This document shows, in pieces, positions 10,084 to 58,022 of a stretch of DNA of 64,000 bases. Numbering within the stretch: position 1 is the stretch's first letter; each line of letters begins with the position of its first letter. Position numbers and translations under genes: made by a program. The stretch is from Candidatus Gastranaerophilales bacterium (GTDB lineage Bacteria > Cyanobacteriota > Vampirovibrionia > Gastranaerophilales > Gastranaerophilaceae), in the NCBI GenBank assembly GCA_944325625.1, contig CALVAP010000001.1, positions 135,649 to 199,648 on the forward strand, read 5' to 3'. The notes below the pieces were generated by a model, which was given only the letters and a program-made list of their open reading frames with translations, was not told the origin of the DNA and ran no database searches.

Positions 10084-11553
10084 TTGAGTAATAACGAATT
10101 AATTAGCAAGACAGCGATAGAACAAAGCAAATTGTTGAAGAATAGAGAAGTTTCATCTGTAGAGCTTGTAGAAGCTCATTTTGAAAGAATAGAAGAAGTT
10201 GATGAAAAGTTAGGGACATTTAATAGCCTGACAAAAGAAGAAGCAATAAAGACAGCCAAAGAGGTTGATGAAAAGCTTAAAAATAAAGAATCTTTGCCCG
10301 TATTGGCAGGTGTTCCTCTGGCATTGAAAGATAACATGAATATGGTAGGCTCATATACCACTGCTTCAAGTAAAATTCTTGCAAATTTTGTTTCTCCATA
10401 TGACGCAACAGTTACCAAAAAGCTCAAAGAAAATATGATACCGATAGTTGGTAAAGCTAATATGGATGAATTCGCCATGGGAAGTTCCAATGAAAATTCG
10501 GCAACAAAATTGGTACATAACCCTTGGAATTTGAATAAAGTTCCCGGAGGCTCCTCCGGTGGTTCAGCAGCGGCTGTTGCGGCATGTGAAGTTCCTCTTT
10601 CGCTTGGCTCTGATACCGGTGGAAGTATTAGGCTTCCTGCGAGTTTTTGTGGCATCGTCGGTGTAAAACCCACTTATGGAAGAGTTTCGAGATACGGTTT
10701 GATAGCCTTTGCATCTTCATTGGATCAAATAGGTCCTTTTTCTCGTTGTGTAGAAGATAGCGCGTTATTGCTCGAAGCTATTTCAGGTCATGACGAAAAA
10801 GATTCCACCTCGTTAAAACTGGAGGTTCCTAAATATTCAGAATTGATAAAACATGACATAAATGGACTAAAGGTTGGAGTTATTACCGAGCTTTTATCCG
10901 ATGGAGTTTCTCCTTGTGTCAAATCGGCGATAGAAGCAGCAATTCAAAAATATAAAGATTTAGGTGCTCAGATAGTTGAAGTTTCACTACCTCTATTAAA
11001 GTACTCAATCGGAGTTTACTACATAATTGCTACGGCAGAGGCAAGCTCAAATCTTGCGAGATTTGATGGAGTAAAATACGGACATCGAACAAAAGAAGCA
11101 AAATCGCTTATAGAAATGTATTGTAAAACAAGAGCAGAAGGCTTTGGTGATGAAGTTAAGCGCCGTATAATGCTCGGAACTTATGCTCTAAGTTCAGGTT
11201 ATTACGATGCTTATTACAAGAAAGCCCAGCAAGTCCGTAGGTTAATTAAAAATGATTTTGACAAGGTCTTTACTCAAGCGGATGTAATAATTTGTCCGAC
11301 ATGTCCGTATACCGCATTTGAAATAGGTTCAAAGGTTTCTGATCCACTTTCAATGTACCTTACGGATATAGGAACAATTACAGCAAACCTTGGTGGAATT
11401 CCGGGCATGAGTGTGCCTTGCGGATTTGATAAAGATGGTATGCCGATAGGTTTAGAAATTTTGGCTCCTGCTTTAAAAGAGGATGTTATGATGTGCGCGG
11501 CATATAATTTTGAACAAGCAACAGATTTTCACAAGAAAATTGCAAATATTTAA
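10084..11553 (+). CDS. gatA: Aspartyl/glutamyl-tRNA amidotransferase subunit A
   Basis: GatA is the amidase of GatCAB. It releases ammonia from glutamine to convert Glu-tRNA(Gln) or Asp-tRNA(Asn) to the amidated forms. The 489-aa product shows the amidase signature: catalytic Lys in PLALKDNMNM near residue 80, the Gly/Ser loop PGGSSGGSAAAVAA near 155 and SDTGGSIRLPASFCG near 177, which carry the cis-Ser/Ser pair. The TTG at 10084 is preferred because GGGAG (10071-10075) sits 8 bases before it; GTG at 10075 overlaps that site. A TATAAT at 10044-10049 may be its promoter. gatB and gatC are not in the window. Confidence 0.95.
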   Translation: MSNNELISKTAIEQSKLLKNREVSSVELVEAHFERIEEVDEKLGTFNSLTKEEAIKTAKEVDEKLKNKESLPVLAGVPLALKDNMNMVGSYTTASSKILANFVSPYDATVTKKLKENMIPIVGKANMDEFAMGSSNENSATKLVHNPWNLNKVPGGSSGGSAAAVAACEVPLSLGSDTGGSIRLPASFCGIVGVKPTYGRVSRYGLIAFASSLDQIGPFSRCVEDSALLLEAISGHDEKDSTSLKLEVPKYSELIKHDINGLKVGVITELLSDGVSPCVKSAIEAAIQKYKDLGAQIVEVSLPLLKYSIGVYYIIATAEASSNLARFDGVKYGHRTKEAKSLIEMYCKTRAEGFGDEVKRRIMLGTYALSSGYYDAYYKKAQQVRRLIKNDFDKVFTQADVIICPTCPYTAFEIGSKVSDPLSMYLTDIGTITANLGGIPGMSVPCGFDKDGMPIGLEILAPALKEDVMMCAAYNFEQATDFHKKIANI

Positions 11554-11556
11554 CGG

Positions 11557-12399
11557 ATGATGAAAAAACTTCTTGCAGCTACAATTCTAGTTTTTGCACT
11601 TGGTATAAAAGCGCTATGTGCGACAGAGAACTACGATTTAGAAGCGATAAGGCTGTACAATCTAGGTTTGGAGCAGTATAGAAAGGGAGCTTATTCTGCG
11701 GCTATAGAATATTTTAAATCAGCTTTAGAGCGCCAAAATGATTTTTATGATGCGTATTATAATCTGGCGGTAGTATATGATTATGTTGGCAATTCGCAAG
11801 CGGCTGTTTCGTCTTTAGAAATGTTATTGAAGCAGGTTCCTGAGGATTTCGCAGCCAATCTCAAACTGGCTCAAATAAGTTATAAACAAGGTAATGTACA
11901 AAAGGCGCTGGATTTATTGGGGAAAATACCACCAACGGCTCAGGAATATTCGAAAGCCCAAAGCTTAAAAGAACGAATAAATTTAGAAAATAAGGCTAAG
12001 AATGAATTTGGTACAGCTCAGCAAGCGGCAGAGGCGGTCCCCATTACAAAGAAAATCACAGGCATAAATGCCCCCACAGGGATAGCACAAGATAGGAACG
12101 GCAATTTATATGTGGCAAGTTTTAGCGATAACGCAATATTCAAAATTATGCCGAATAATATTCACCAACTTTATTCCAAAAGTACGCAAATTAGTGGTCC
12201 GATAGGTATTGCCATAGATGACATGTCAAATATGTATGTTGCAAATTATAATAAAAATAACATATTGAAGATTGATAAATGGGGGAATGTAAGCGTATTT
12301 ATGGAGTATTCTAACAAACCATATTACTTGTTTATAAAGGACAATATGTTATATGTGAGTGAGCAAGGGTCAAATATTGTTCAAGTAAGGAAGCTGTAG
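11557..12399 (+). CDS. Exported TPR and NHL-repeat protein
   Basis: The 280-aa product begins with a signal peptide (MMKKLLAATILVFALGIKA, cleavage near LCA-TEN). Residues 30-135 hold about three TPR units (LYNLGLEQYRKGAYSAAIEY; YDAYYNLAVVYDYVGNSQAA). Residues 160-280 hold two to three NHL-type strands (GIAQDRNGNLYVASFSDNAI; GIAIDDMSNMYVANYNKNNI), which form part of a beta-propeller blade set. It is probably a periplasmic or surface scaffold binding protein or glycan; the partner is unknown. It starts 3 bases after gatA, so co-transcription is likely although function looks unrelated. Confidence 0.75.
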   Translation: MMKKLLAATILVFALGIKALCATENYDLEAIRLYNLGLEQYRKGAYSAAIEYFKSALERQNDFYDAYYNLAVVYDYVGNSQAAVSSLEMLLKQVPEDFAANLKLAQISYKQGNVQKALDLLGKIPPTAQEYSKAQSLKERINLENKAKNEFGTAQQAAEAVPITKKITGINAPTGIAQDRNGNLYVASFSDNAIFKIMPNNIHQLYSKSTQISGPIGIAIDDMSNMYVANYNKNNILKIDKWGNVSVFMEYSNKPYYLFIKDNMLYVSEQGSNIVQVRKL

Positions 12400-12461
12400 C
12401 ATTAAATTTGTATTAATAGGTAGCAAGTTTTAGCAAAATATAAATCAAAGCCAAAAAAACA

Positions 12462-12491
12462 TTTACAAAAACCGAAAAGACATGTTATAAT
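12462..12491 (+). promoter_or_regulatory. Strong promoter in the gatA-tig gap
   Basis: TTTACA (12462-12467), 18-base spacer ending TGT, then TATAAT (12486-12491). No open reading frame starts within the next 450 bases, so the promoter most simply serves an RNA. Confidence 0.6.
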
Positions 12492-12497
12492 CGAAAA

Positions 12498-12621
12498 CGT
12501 ATTTATCGTATTAGAATTATGGGGGAAAAAGAGCATAGACCCGCAAAGCTTTGTTGGATAGCTAATTGCTGATTGTTATACAAAGAATATTTTTTGTTTT
12601 TGGGATTATTGTAATCCCAAA
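12498..12621 (+). other. Transcribed, non-coding stretch with two hairpins
   Basis: Downstream of the promoter, CTTTGT (12549-12554) can pair with ACAAAG (12580-12585) around an inner AGC/GCT pair. A perfect 10-bp stem (12599-12608 with 12612-12621) follows. No reading frame with a ribosome site is seen. It may be the 5' half of one RNA with the 12694-12823 element, or a separate leader. Confidence 0.3.
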
Positions 12622-12693
12622 TAAAAAGATAGTGGTTTTCATAAAAGATTAAAATAAAATTACAAAAAGAAATATGAATTTTGGAATAATTAT

Positions 12694-12823
12694 AAACCTG
12701 CCAAACGAAGCCTCTAAACACTTCAAGGTATTCGTAAGACCTCGTTTTAACTGAAATCTAACAGTTTATCGGAAAAATTGACATGACTATATTCTGACTT
12801 CCGAACGAGGTTTTGGCAGGTTT
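12694..12823 (+). ncRNA. Candidate structured small RNA (about 130 nt)
   Basis: A 12-bp terminal helix joins 12694-12705 to 12812-12823. Inside it, ACCTCGT near 12739 pairs with ACGAGGT ending at 12811. Within that, AACTG/CAGTT forms one hairpin (loop AAATCTAA) and TCGGAA/TTCCGA forms another. The set nests without conflict, giving a branched fold like a stable RNA, and T-rich sequence follows. It carries no visible hallmark of SRP RNA, tmRNA or RNase P RNA. The next gene, tig, has its own promoter, which argues for an independent RNA rather than a leader. A 6S-like role is possible but unproven. Confidence 0.4.
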
Positions 12824-12920
12824 ATTTTATTGTTGAGAAGGAGAGCTAAGAAGTTTAATAAATTACAGTTTCGTAAAAATAAATACGAATAGTTTCTTAT
12901 ACGTACTCTTTGTGTAGGCA

Positions 12921-12949
12921 CTGGACGTATTTTATATTTGTTATATAAT
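12921..12949 (+). promoter_or_regulatory. Promoter of the tig-clpP-clpX operon
   Basis: CTGGAC (12921-12926), 17-base spacer, TATAAT (12944-12949), about 36 bases upstream of the tig start. Confidence 0.55.
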
Positions 12950-12985
12950 GTTGACAAGAGTAAACATAAAAAAAGGAATTATGAT

Positions 12986-14281
12986 ATGAAAACAGAAGTA
13001 AAAAAGCTTGGCACAAATGTGGTGGAAGTTAATATTGAAATTGAAGAAAAAAATGCCGAAAAGGAATACGAAAAGGCTTGTAAACGTATTGCGCAAAATG
13101 TAAATATTGCAGGGTTTAGAAAAGGAAAAGCACCAAGAAATATAGTAGAAAAATATGTAGGTGTTGATTCAATTCGTCGTGAAGCTTTGGATTCAATGTT
13201 ACCAAGAGTTTTTACGGATATTATAAAAGAAAATCAATATGAACTAATTACAGAACCAACATTGATGTCTTTTGATTTTGAAAAGGGTAAGCCTTGTAAA
13301 GTTGTAGCAAAGTTTGAGCTTCGACCAGAAGTAAAAATAAGCGCCTACAAAGGATTAACTGTAGAAACCGAAGAATATAAAAATGAAGATGGTGCATTGG
13401 ATAAAGAGCTGGAAAAGCTTTCAGACAGATATGCGGAGTTTGTAAAAGTAGAAGGCAGAAAAACAACAGACAAAGATGTTGTTATGATAGATTTTGAAGG
13501 TTCAGTCGGAGATGAGTTAATCAAAGGCGGTGCTGCAAAGAATTATATGCTTGATTTGGCAAATTCGACATTTATCCCGGGTTTTGCAGAGCAACTGGTT
13601 GATAAAGAAGTAGGCAAAGAGTTTACAATTGATGTAAAATTCCCCGAAGAGTACCATGACGAAAAACTTAAAGGTGCAGATGCAAAATTTAAAATTACGA
13701 TAAATGAAATAAAAGAAAAAAAACTGCCTGAAATAAATGATGAATTTGCAAAAAAAGTTGGTAAATTTGAAACATTAGATGAACTAAAGGCAGATATTCA
13801 AAAGTATCTTGATGGTACAGCAAAAGCGGAAAATGAAAAACGCTCATATGAAGCAATATTTGGAAAAATATTGGACAATGCGGAAATGGAAATTCACCAA
13901 GAGATGGTAGAACGTGAAGCAGAAGCGTTGATAGAAGAAATGAAGCATAGAGCAAAACAAAGAGGGCAAAACATAGACGAAGCTATCGAAAAAGAAGGTA
14001 AAGACAATGTAAAAAAAGAAATGGAGAAAGAAGCTTTGTCAAGAATAAAAAATTCTCTTGTCATTTCCAAAATAGCAAAAGAAGAAAAGATACAAGTAAC
14101 TCCTCAAGATATAGAAGCAAAACTTCATGAAGTTGCGAGAATGTATGGCGTAGATCAAGCAACAATGTTGAAAGAAATGTACAAAAATGTTAGTCTGATA
14201 CAGTCAATGACACAGCAAATAATCAGTGAAAAGGTCAGCAGATTTATTTTAGATAACAACACAGTGAAATACAAGAAATAA
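12986..14281 (+). CDS. tig: Trigger factor, ribosome-bound chaperone/PPIase
   Basis: Trigger factor docks on ribosomal protein L23 at the exit tunnel and shields nascent chains. The 431-aa protein has the N-terminal ribosome-binding domain with the signature GFRKGKAPRNIVEK near residue 40, a central FKBP-type PPIase domain (about 150-245; KDVVMIDFEGSVGDE, FIPGFAEQLVDKEVG) and a long helical C-terminal chaperone domain. ATG 12986 is preceded by AAAGGAA at good spacing; an upstream ATG at 12938 overlaps the promoter -10 box and is excluded. The tig-clpP-clpX order is the classical proteostasis operon. Confidence 0.96.
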   Translation: MKTEVKKLGTNVVEVNIEIEEKNAEKEYEKACKRIAQNVNIAGFRKGKAPRNIVEKYVGVDSIRREALDSMLPRVFTDIIKENQYELITEPTLMSFDFEKGKPCKVVAKFELRPEVKISAYKGLTVETEEYKNEDGALDKELEKLSDRYAEFVKVEGRKTTDKDVVMIDFEGSVGDELIKGGAAKNYMLDLANSTFIPGFAEQLVDKEVGKEFTIDVKFPEEYHDEKLKGADAKFKITINEIKEKKLPEINDEFAKKVGKFETLDELKADIQKYLDGTAKAENEKRSYEAIFGKILDNAEMEIHQEMVEREAEALIEEMKHRAKQRGQNIDEAIEKEGKDNVKKEMEKEALSRIKNSLVISKIAKEEKIQVTPQDIEAKLHEVARMYGVDQATMLKEMYKNVSLIQSMTQQIISEKVSRFILDNNTVKYKK

Positions 14282-33181: not shown

Positions 33182-33255
33182 ATGCCCGTAGCTCAGTTGG
33201 ATAGAGTAGCAGTTTCCGAAACTGTTGGTCGTGGGTTCGAATCCCATCGGGCATA
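33182..33255 (+). tRNA. tRNA-Arg (anticodon CCG)
   Basis: A 74-base cloverleaf: acceptor ATGCCCG/CGGGCAT, D arm GCTC...GAGT, anticodon stem GCAGT/ACTGT with loop TTCCGAA (anticodon CCG, reading CGG), T arm GTGGG-TTCGAAT-CCCAT, discriminator A. CCA is not encoded. The glycosyltransferase gene at 33273 follows after 17 bases and may be co-transcribed. Confidence 0.93.
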
Positions 33256-56067: not shown

Positions 56068-57102
56068 ATGAAACAACAGTTAGAAAATATTCTTAATAGT
56101 GCATTGGCAGAGATTAATTGCGCAAAGACTTCCGAGGATGTTGAAAATATAAAATTGAACTATTTGAGTCGTAAGGGAACTTTGAATTCTATTAAGAAAA
56201 ATCTTAAAGATTTGTCGGTAGAAGATAAAAGGATTGTGGGGTCATTTGCAAATGAGGTGGCACAAACACTGGAGGCAAAATTAGCAGATAAGTCAGCTGA
56301 AATATACAGAGCAGAGCTTGCTCAAAAGTTGGAGAATGAGAAGATTGATGTTACGCTAAGCGGTACTGCACATCATGAAGGACATTTGAATCCGCTTACA
56401 TCTACAATTAATGAGATTGTAGAAATATTCCAAGGATTGGGATTTAGCGTTATGGAGAATGAAAATAGTCCTGAATTGGAAACAGAATATGTAAATTTTG
56501 ATATGCTTAATTTCCCTCCGGATCACCCGGCAAAAGATATGCAAGATACATTCTATTCTACTGTTGCACCAAATGTTATATTGAGGAGTCAAACCTCCGG
56601 TGCTCAAATTAGAGAAATGCTCGTTAAAAAACCGCCGATAAGCGTTATTTGTCCTGGAAGAGTTTATAGATGCGAAGCGGTATCTGCTCGAAAAAATAAC
56701 CTCTTTCACCAAATTGAAGGACTGCTTGTTGATACAAATATTACGTTTGGTGATTTAAAAGGTGTATTGAATGAGTTTATTAGGGTATATTTTGGTGAAG
56801 CCAGACCGACAAGATTTAGAAGCAGCTATTTCCCATTTACAGAACCGTCTGCAGAAGTTGATGTTCAGTGTATTATGTGTGGCGGAAAGGGTTGCAGGGT
56901 TTGTTCAGGTACCGGTTGGTTAGAGGTGTTGGGCTCTGGTATGGTTCATGTCAATGTACTTAAAAACGTTGGTATTGACCCTGAAGTATACAGTGGATTT
57001 GCTTTTGGCATGGGAGTTGAGCGACTTGCTATGTTAAAGTATGCAATTGATGATATTAGACTGTTTTTTAATAATGATATTAGATTTTTGAAACAGTTTT
57101 AG
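56068..57102 (+). CDS. pheS: Phenylalanyl-tRNA synthetase alpha subunit
   Basis: PheS charges tRNA-Phe as the catalytic subunit of alpha2beta2 PheRS. The 344-aa protein has an N-terminal coiled coil, then HLNPLTSTINEIVEIFQGLG, motif 2 (RVYRCEAVSARKNNLFHQIE) and motif 3 (GFAFGMGVERLAMLKYAIDD). Four Cys (CIMCGGKGCRVC) form a zinc-like cluster in the loop before motif 3, as in other PheS. ATG 56068 follows GAGGCGGAA; an earlier ATG at 56008 adds residues unlike the family. pheT is not adjacent. Confidence 0.95.
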   Translation: MKQQLENILNSALAEINCAKTSEDVENIKLNYLSRKGTLNSIKKNLKDLSVEDKRIVGSFANEVAQTLEAKLADKSAEIYRAELAQKLENEKIDVTLSGTAHHEGHLNPLTSTINEIVEIFQGLGFSVMENENSPELETEYVNFDMLNFPPDHPAKDMQDTFYSTVAPNVILRSQTSGAQIREMLVKKPPISVICPGRVYRCEAVSARKNNLFHQIEGLLVDTNITFGDLKGVLNEFIRVYFGEARPTRFRSSYFPFTEPSAEVDVQCIMCGGKGCRVCSGTGWLEVLGSGMVHVNVLKNVGIDPEVYSGFAFGMGVERLAMLKYAIDDIRLFFNNDIRFLKQF

Positions 57103-57112
57103 TGTGTTTTTT

Positions 57113-57150
57113 AGGGCGCGCCTTCGATATTCGAAGGCGCGCCTTTGTTT
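57113..57150 (+). terminator. Intrinsic terminator after pheS
   Basis: A 13-bp GC-rich perfect stem (57115-57127 with 57131-57143), loop TAT, then T-rich sequence. It may serve both pheS and the convergent radical SAM gene. Confidence 0.85.
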
Positions 57151-57185
57151 TAATAGAAAATAGAAGTATGAGTGTTTTTAACTAT

Positions 57186-58022
57186 TTAGCGGCTGTTGAC
57201 CCATTGAACACATTGTGAACAAAATTCCGTTTCCAAATAGCATTTTTTTGAAAATGCGCTAAAACTGCTTCCTGCTCGCGCTCTGTAGTCATTTACTAGC
57301 ATTGGACAATTATAGATGCCTTTTGTTGTGAGAATTCTCGAATTATGGCAGGTTAGCATTTTTTCATTTTCAGGTTTGAGGTTTTGCATTTCTATTTGAG
57401 CGTTTTTATCAAACCATGGGAGTATTTCCAAGTAAACATCCTCTTTTTCGATATTGTAGCGTTCTAAAACTCCATTCATCAAGGTTTTGATTGTTTTTTC
57501 ATCCTCTTTATAATAGTTTGTGTATTTAATAACCGGGGTAAATGTGTATTTTATAAGGCTTTGAATTGCGCCGATTGCTTTTCTGAATGAACCGCGACCT
57601 CTTAAATCATCGTTTTTTCTCTCGTCGTAACTGTCTATGCTAATGTAGAAAAATAGTTCATTATCCCCTTCGTCTTCAACTTTTTTTAGAAATCTTGCTT
57701 TTTTATCATTAATGCTCATTCCGTTTGTAAAAATTGTTACGGGCTTATATTTTAAGCAGGTTCTTAAAATAGTGTTAAAATCGGGGTGCAGGAGCGGTTC
57801 TCCTCCGGTTAAGCATATCATTTTTACGTCTAGTTCAGAAGTGTCTGTAAGGGCTTGTTTTATTATATCCAAAGGTAAAAAATCTTTGATTTTTTTGTAA
57901 GGGTCAAAATTTATATAACAATGTTTGCACTTAAGACTACAATTTTGATTTGTAAGTTCTATGTAAAAATTGTCCAAGTTTTTAAGCTCCACTTTTGGAG
58001 CAGTTAAGATAGTCGTACCCAT
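57186..58022 (-). CDS. Radical SAM protein of unknown reaction
   Basis: The 278-aa protein has the SAM-cluster motif CSLKCKHCY at residues 29-37, GGEPLLHPD near 75 and TNGMS near 103, giving the partial TIM barrel. C-terminal Cys (MLTCHNSRILTTKGIYNCPM, then CYLETEFCSQCVQW) suggest a SPASM-like extra cluster, as in peptide- or protein-modifying radical SAM enzymes. No substrate peptide gene is obvious nearby. AGGAGAAAG lies before the ATG. Its partner may be the downstream-of-strand neighbour at 58166, which is unrecognised. Confidence 0.8.
   Translation of the reverse strand: MGTTILTAPKVELKNLDNFYIELTNQNCSLKCKHCYINFDPYKKIKDFLPLDIIKQALTDTSELDVKMICLTGGEPLLHPDFNTILRTCLKYKPVTIFTNGMSINDKKARFLKKVEDEGDNELFFYISIDSYDERKNDDLRGRGSFRKAIGAIQSLIKYTFTPVIKYTNYYKEDEKTIKTLMNGVLERYNIEKEDVYLEILPWFDKNAQIEMQNLKPENEKMLTCHNSRILTTKGIYNCPMLVNDYRARAGSSFSAFSKKCYLETEFCSQCVQWVNSR

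Follow-up and report, generated by a model that had tools for sequence, protein, structure and literature searches.

Orphan bacterial small RNAs are strain- or species-specific intergenic transcripts. Housekeeping RNAs tend to stand alone, with a strong promoter and a branched fold, and the non-coding RNA of a retron has, as a rule, its cognate reverse transcriptase adjacent. The Gastranaerophilales are non-photosynthetic relatives of the Cyanobacteria, and among titles and abstract openings of open-licence papers we found no report on small RNAs of the Gastranaerophilales themselves, nor anything on the locus described here. The main text of PMC8040213 contains no mention of Melainabacteria, Gastranaerophil- or Cyanobacteria. 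The locus is a segment upstream of a presumed trigger factor gene, in which a promoter-like site precedes a long branched inverted repeat. Judged from its sequence, it is a real feature that matches no known family and has no evolutionary support as a structured RNA; at best it would be an RNA of recent origin confined to this lineage, and otherwise a relic of folded DNA.

The window, i.e., the whole stretch of 64,000 nucleotides analyzed, comes from a genome of 1.70 Mb in 17 contigs (G000, contig C1, positions 135649–199648). Within it, gatA ends at position 11553 and is followed on the plus strand by a gene from the ORF list (11557–12399) that codes for a protein of 280 amino acids with TPR and NHL repeats (Pfam TPR_19, E 4.4e-14; NHL, E 3.8e-4) and has a homologue in a related genome (locus L048). 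The preliminary description had taken gatA as the direct neighbor of the region, which was wrong, because this TPR/NHL gene intervenes. The intergenic region proper is 586 bp long (12400–12985), with a GC content of 28%, and reaches from the TPR/NHL gene to a plus-strand gene of the ORF list at 12986–14281. The latter we take to be tig (trigger factor), a name that comes from the preliminary description, and the genes after it look like clpP and clpX. A homologue of tig was found in 57 of the 59 genomes searched, its own genome counted. The separate promoter that had been proposed for this gene was recovered by the promoter scan as a promoter-like site, TGGACG-16-TATAAT, at 12922–12949 on the plus strand, within a block that is conserved in both genomes available from the same genus (G001 and G002).

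The same type of scan gave a sigma-70-type promoter-like site, TTTACA-18-TATAAT, at 12462–12491 on the plus strand, confirming the promoter reported before. It matches 11 of 12 consensus positions and has a TG ahead of the -10 box (extended -10). Sites with at least 11 of 12 positions occur four times in the 64-kb window and 2–6 times (mean 3.3) in ten shuffles of it; their number is thus at chance level, which counts against reading the locus as a transcript. Among these four, the site at 12462–12491 is the only one outside long ORFs and the only one with an extended -10. The region downstream had been described as lacking an open frame, and this was right for the plus strand (the ORF list has none of at least 30 amino acids in 12400–12937) and wrong for the minus strand, where ORFs of 72, 56, and 44 amino acids overlap the intergenic region. 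Immediately 5′ of the fold lies TTTTGGAATAATTATAAAC (12679–12697), considered as a possible second promoter. It occurs once in the window, and with 3 mismatches a copy is also present in 17 of 100 shuffles. It resembles TTTTGGAATAATTTTAAAC (L112:1544–1558), which in genome G192 precedes an open frame of 506 aa; with a shorter form of the pattern, L112 was the sole non-self locus among 115. The likeness is possibly that of a shared AT-rich promoter element, or due to chance.

The locus holds a branched self-complementary domain at 12692–12825, identified by fold prediction, repeat search and shuffles. In the predicted plus-strand fold a closing helix (12692–12704/12813–12825) surrounds a hairpin (12705–12735) and an inner helix (12738–12745/12805–12812), which in turn encloses two small hairpins (12749–12766 and 12769–12804). 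A perfect 14-bp inverted repeat (12692–12705/12812–12825) bounds the fold, and an 11-nt repeat at 91% is nested inside it. The 14-bp repeat is the only perfect one of at least 14 bp with a spacer of 20–150 in the window; since 8 of 60 shuffled windows also carry one, it is not unusual by itself. Rarity applies to the fold as a whole, whose self-complementarity is real. The 134 bases of 12692–12825 (GC 37%) fold at -41.3 kcal/mol (z -5.6), and none of 500 dinucleotide shuffles was as stable; for the interval 12697–12826, close to the one first proposed, z was -3.9 (1 of 500 shuffles) and in a second run -4.3 (0 of 200). A comparison that allows for the choice of boundaries gave the same picture: the best 136-nt stretch of the intergenic region reached -41.8, against a mean of -26.4 and a lowest value of -40.0 for the best stretches of 240 dinucleotide shuffles, none of them as stable, with the real sequence scanned at every base and the shuffles at every third. 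On a coarse plus-strand grid with 34-base steps, 17 of 1879 stretches of the window had z of -4.33 or lower, and the grid points at the locus ranged only from -2.7 to +2.0, the one that starts at 12683 cutting the closing helix. Among the three strongest signals of this coarse scan, 2857–2997 (z -6.6) and 57019–57222 (z -5.6) have the appearance of ordinary terminators, each with a perfect hairpin of short loop (2960–2997 and 57115–57143).

Folding of the complementary strand is no less stable (-45.5 for the minus strand of 12692–12832 vs. -41.4 for the plus strand; -46.2 vs. -41.8 for the best stretch of the intergenic region), and folding therefore does not favor RNA over palindromic DNA. 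Of the structured RNA that had been suggested, the significance of the branched fold stands, and the step from fold to RNA is the part that this strand comparison weakens. The 5′ part of the putative transcript (12495–12690) shows no significant folding: its z is -1.65, and 32 of 500 shuffles equal it or do better. The fold of 12495–12832 has there a plus-strand AT-rich hairpin at 12588–12631 (pairs 12588–12595/12624–12631 and 12599–12608/12612–12621) with the core GGGATTA-TTG-TAATCCC and no U-run directly after it on either strand.

Comparison with the two genomes of the same genus, G001 (loci L019/L048) and G002 (loci L024/L050), bears on the origin of the segment. In G001 the gene order found by tblastn is the same, with gatA (89% identical), the TPR/NHL gene (64%), tig (82%) and clpP; the G002 contig begins within the tail of the TPR gene, whose last 20 residues were recognized by eye, and its tig reads as two overlapping pieces. 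The spacing between the TPR gene and tig is 586 bp in G000, 107 bp in G001, and 85 bp in G002, i.e., the region is longer by 479 and 501 bp, respectively. The whole segment from promoter to hairpin is absent before tig in G001 and G002, while the tig promoter block is kept in both. The borders have diverged too far for exact ends to be set, or for defining an empty site or target duplication. The best reading is that of a lineage-specific insert between the TPR/NHL gene and tig. A gain appears more likely than a loss, since in the genomes of the family and class no strong match to the model of the fold turned up apart from the window, although the three genomes of the genus alone do not separate the two.

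That model, R1, is a single-sequence model of the fold, and we searched it against 383 genomes of the family and 382 of the class, two overlapping sets that are both samples of larger groups and were searched with filters whose stricter settings lose weak matches. The only strong match was to the window itself. Weak matches were found in 11 other genomes of the family (E 0.057–0.97 per genome), all inside open frames of 95–638 amino acids; the alignments inspected had no clear common sequence, two sharing a CGGAA..TTCCG hairpin within frames of more than 500 amino acids, and on these grounds all 11 were taken as chance. Among the 45 tig loci searched there were three partial matches, also weak (the best with 19 bits and E 0.058, covering 45 bases), and these were likewise taken as chance. 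At the DNA level, a search of 59 genomes of relatives, its own included, gave 15 matches in 13 others (E up to 0.001), and in the 382 class genomes 7 others matched (E up to 1e-5). All of these matches, mostly AT-rich, fall within 12564–12699, with at most 8 bases reaching the closing helix. We inspected 7 of the 15 loci from the first search and all 7 from the second, and in all 22 loci R1 had no match at E up to 1; nor had it any in 10 loci from a scan for the repeat unit TAAACCTGCCAAA. Searches of phage and plasmid DNA returned only fragments of 26–39 bases, and five exact-pattern scans of viral contigs yielded a single match, of 19 bases and not extended, the other four scans being empty. 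There is thus no sign of selection on the predicted fold, homologues not having been found in the genomes searched.

Ahead of tig in three relatives' genomes we observed a different element: a conserved minus-strand stretch (CATACACTCTGTTCTTCTTTTACT..GTTGCT) ~200–240 bp upstream of the gene, after which come a hairpin of CCCTTT type and a T-run (L052:2939–3017, L053:3030–3111, and L051:3669–3747; L029:1170–1251 is from the same sequence as the L053 locus). The element has the look of a small RNA that ends in an intrinsic terminator. No Rfam family came near the cut-off in L052, a model built from the three loci matched only these loci among 95 sources, the window included, and viral contigs scanned once for an exact pattern had no match.

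The reading that we prefer, tentatively, is that the segment upstream of tig is a small independent transcription unit for an orphan RNA of ~335 nt, whose 3′ end and terminator would be the branched hairpin. From the extended -10 promoter, RNA polymerase would begin at about 12498 and stop in or just after the hairpin (12692–12832). The hairpin has a GC-richer stem, CCTGCC/GGCAGG, after which comes a U-rich run, TTTATTTTATTG (12820–12832, plus strand), the presumable 3′ end if the closing helix terminates transcription. The hairpin would shield tig from read-through, and tig would keep its own conserved promoter. Transcription, its start and termination, and any function of the orphan RNA we infer from the combination of an extended -10 site outside long ORFs, a plus strand free of frames, the fold and the U-rich run, together with the absence of the segment from siblings that keep the tig promoter block. 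This reading is weakened by the folding of the complementary strand, as palindromic DNA would fold, and by the 5′ part, together with a terminator scan of 12300–13100 that found no standard terminator. It is weakened too because no homologue was found, and hence no covariation or sign of selection.

Nearly as likely, since no sign of selection was found and both strands fold alike, is an inert palindromic relic, MITE-like or another remnant of a small mobile element, lying downstream of promoter-like AT-rich sequence. Its inverted repeats would give a fold to RNA of either strand, with no RNA function behind it. The insert-like absence of the segment in both siblings agrees with it, as does the lack of a homologue under selection. 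So do the perfect terminal repeats, which end in TA-AACC and GGTT-TA, where a TA duplication is possible and not necessary. On the other hand, a relic of this kind might be expected in several copies, and 12400–12900 gave one match in its own genome, i.e., it is single copy. Exact copies of the TAAACCTGCCAAA unit in that genome are limited to the two arms of the element, and matches with one mismatch are as many as for the reversed control pattern (11 vs. 11). In G001 the counts were 9 vs. 7. In G002 they were 15 in all vs. 6, an excess over the control that favors a mobile origin; the sole exact match in G002 lies inside a 767-aa open frame, and R1 had no match in the loci fetched, four from each genome (4 of the 15 in G002). 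The phage, plasmid and viral searches described above gave no copy beyond their short fragments, and neither they nor the repeat searches found a transposon with the same ends.

Two other readings keep a role for RNA. A free-standing, strongly folded RNA of ~335 nt, of no described class, regulatory or borne by an element and recently gained from an unsampled source, seems unlikely to us. Quite unlikely is a second long 5′ leader of tig, with transcripts running from 12498 into the gene and the hairpin acting as an attenuator or in translational control. The segment does lie on the same strand, ~150 bp upstream of the predicted start of tig and with no recognized terminator between, but the siblings lack it and yet keep the conserved tig promoter block around 12922–12949, and no leader or riboswitch family matched. 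That the region is a degraded protein gene or gene fragment is very improbable: the three minus-strand ORFs overlap it, but none of them has a Pfam match at E up to 10 (Pfam being the sole protein search), stops occur in all six frames of 12400–12985, and the DNA matches in phages and plasmids are the 26–39-base fragments only. A diverged copy of one of the housekeeping RNAs, be it 6S, RNase P, tmRNA or SRP RNA, would suit the form that such RNAs often have but can practically be dismissed, as the genome has candidates for all four elsewhere and the locus matches none.

The search for known families was made with 4227 families of Rfam 15. At gathering level the whole window gave only a tRNA at 33182–33255, ~20 kb away, and nothing at the locus, where the best match of a relaxed scan had E 2.7; the earlier statement that hallmarks of tmRNA, RNase P and SRP RNA are not recognizable thus holds, and the 6S model did not match either. 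ARAGORN found neither tRNA nor tmRNA at the locus. On other contigs, copies that score over the cut-off are those of RNase P RNA (RF00010, C7:30697–31035, 252.5 bits), tmRNA (RF00023, C11:197–590, 135.5 bits) and bacterial SRP RNA (RF00169, C4:85456–85552, 56 bits), none of which has a covariance-model match at the locus. Low-scoring matches to housekeeping RNAs were disregarded, because weak matches also appear in archaeal control genomes. For 6S RNA (RF00013) the candidate of this genome is at C2:23754–23936, with 39.6 bits and E 9.9e-7, below the gathering score of 46.4. In a sample of 35 genomes, its own included and family and order taken together, 31 had some 6S match, 17 of them over the cut-off and 14 without any over it. 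The candidates of Gastranaerophilaceae mostly score around or below the Rfam gathering score, and a 6S model specific to the lineage might be useful. A retron, group II intron or DGR was rejected because a search of the genome with RVT_1 at E 0.001 was negative, and an integron attC because inspection by eye found no fitting pair of sites.

Set against the described systems, the locus shares some traits with each. Like 6S RNA, it would be a free-standing folded RNA between genes, of a size of similar order; however, the 6S candidate of the genome is on another contig and the locus has no RF00013 match. With retron msr-msd RNA it has in common long closing inverted repeats around several hairpins, but its genome has no reverse transcriptase match. 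MITE-type elements are likewise short non-coding segments with perfect terminal inverted repeats, whereas this one is single copy, with no transposon partner found and no clear target duplication. Compared with intrinsic terminators, the loop of ~106 nt with further helices is unusual and the scan made no call, although the GC-richer stem CCTGCC/GGCAGG with an A-rich stretch before and a U-rich one after is the same. If transcribed, the segment would be a very young non-coding transcription unit, born by insertion before a chaperone gene; it also teaches that a good promoter match and a good fold can together flag an element that has no evolutionary support. From the orphan bacterial small RNAs it differs in being a predicted transcript and in that relatives were not found, while it shares with them a promoter-like site of its own, a plus strand without a 30-aa frame and a terminal hairpin at the 3′ end.
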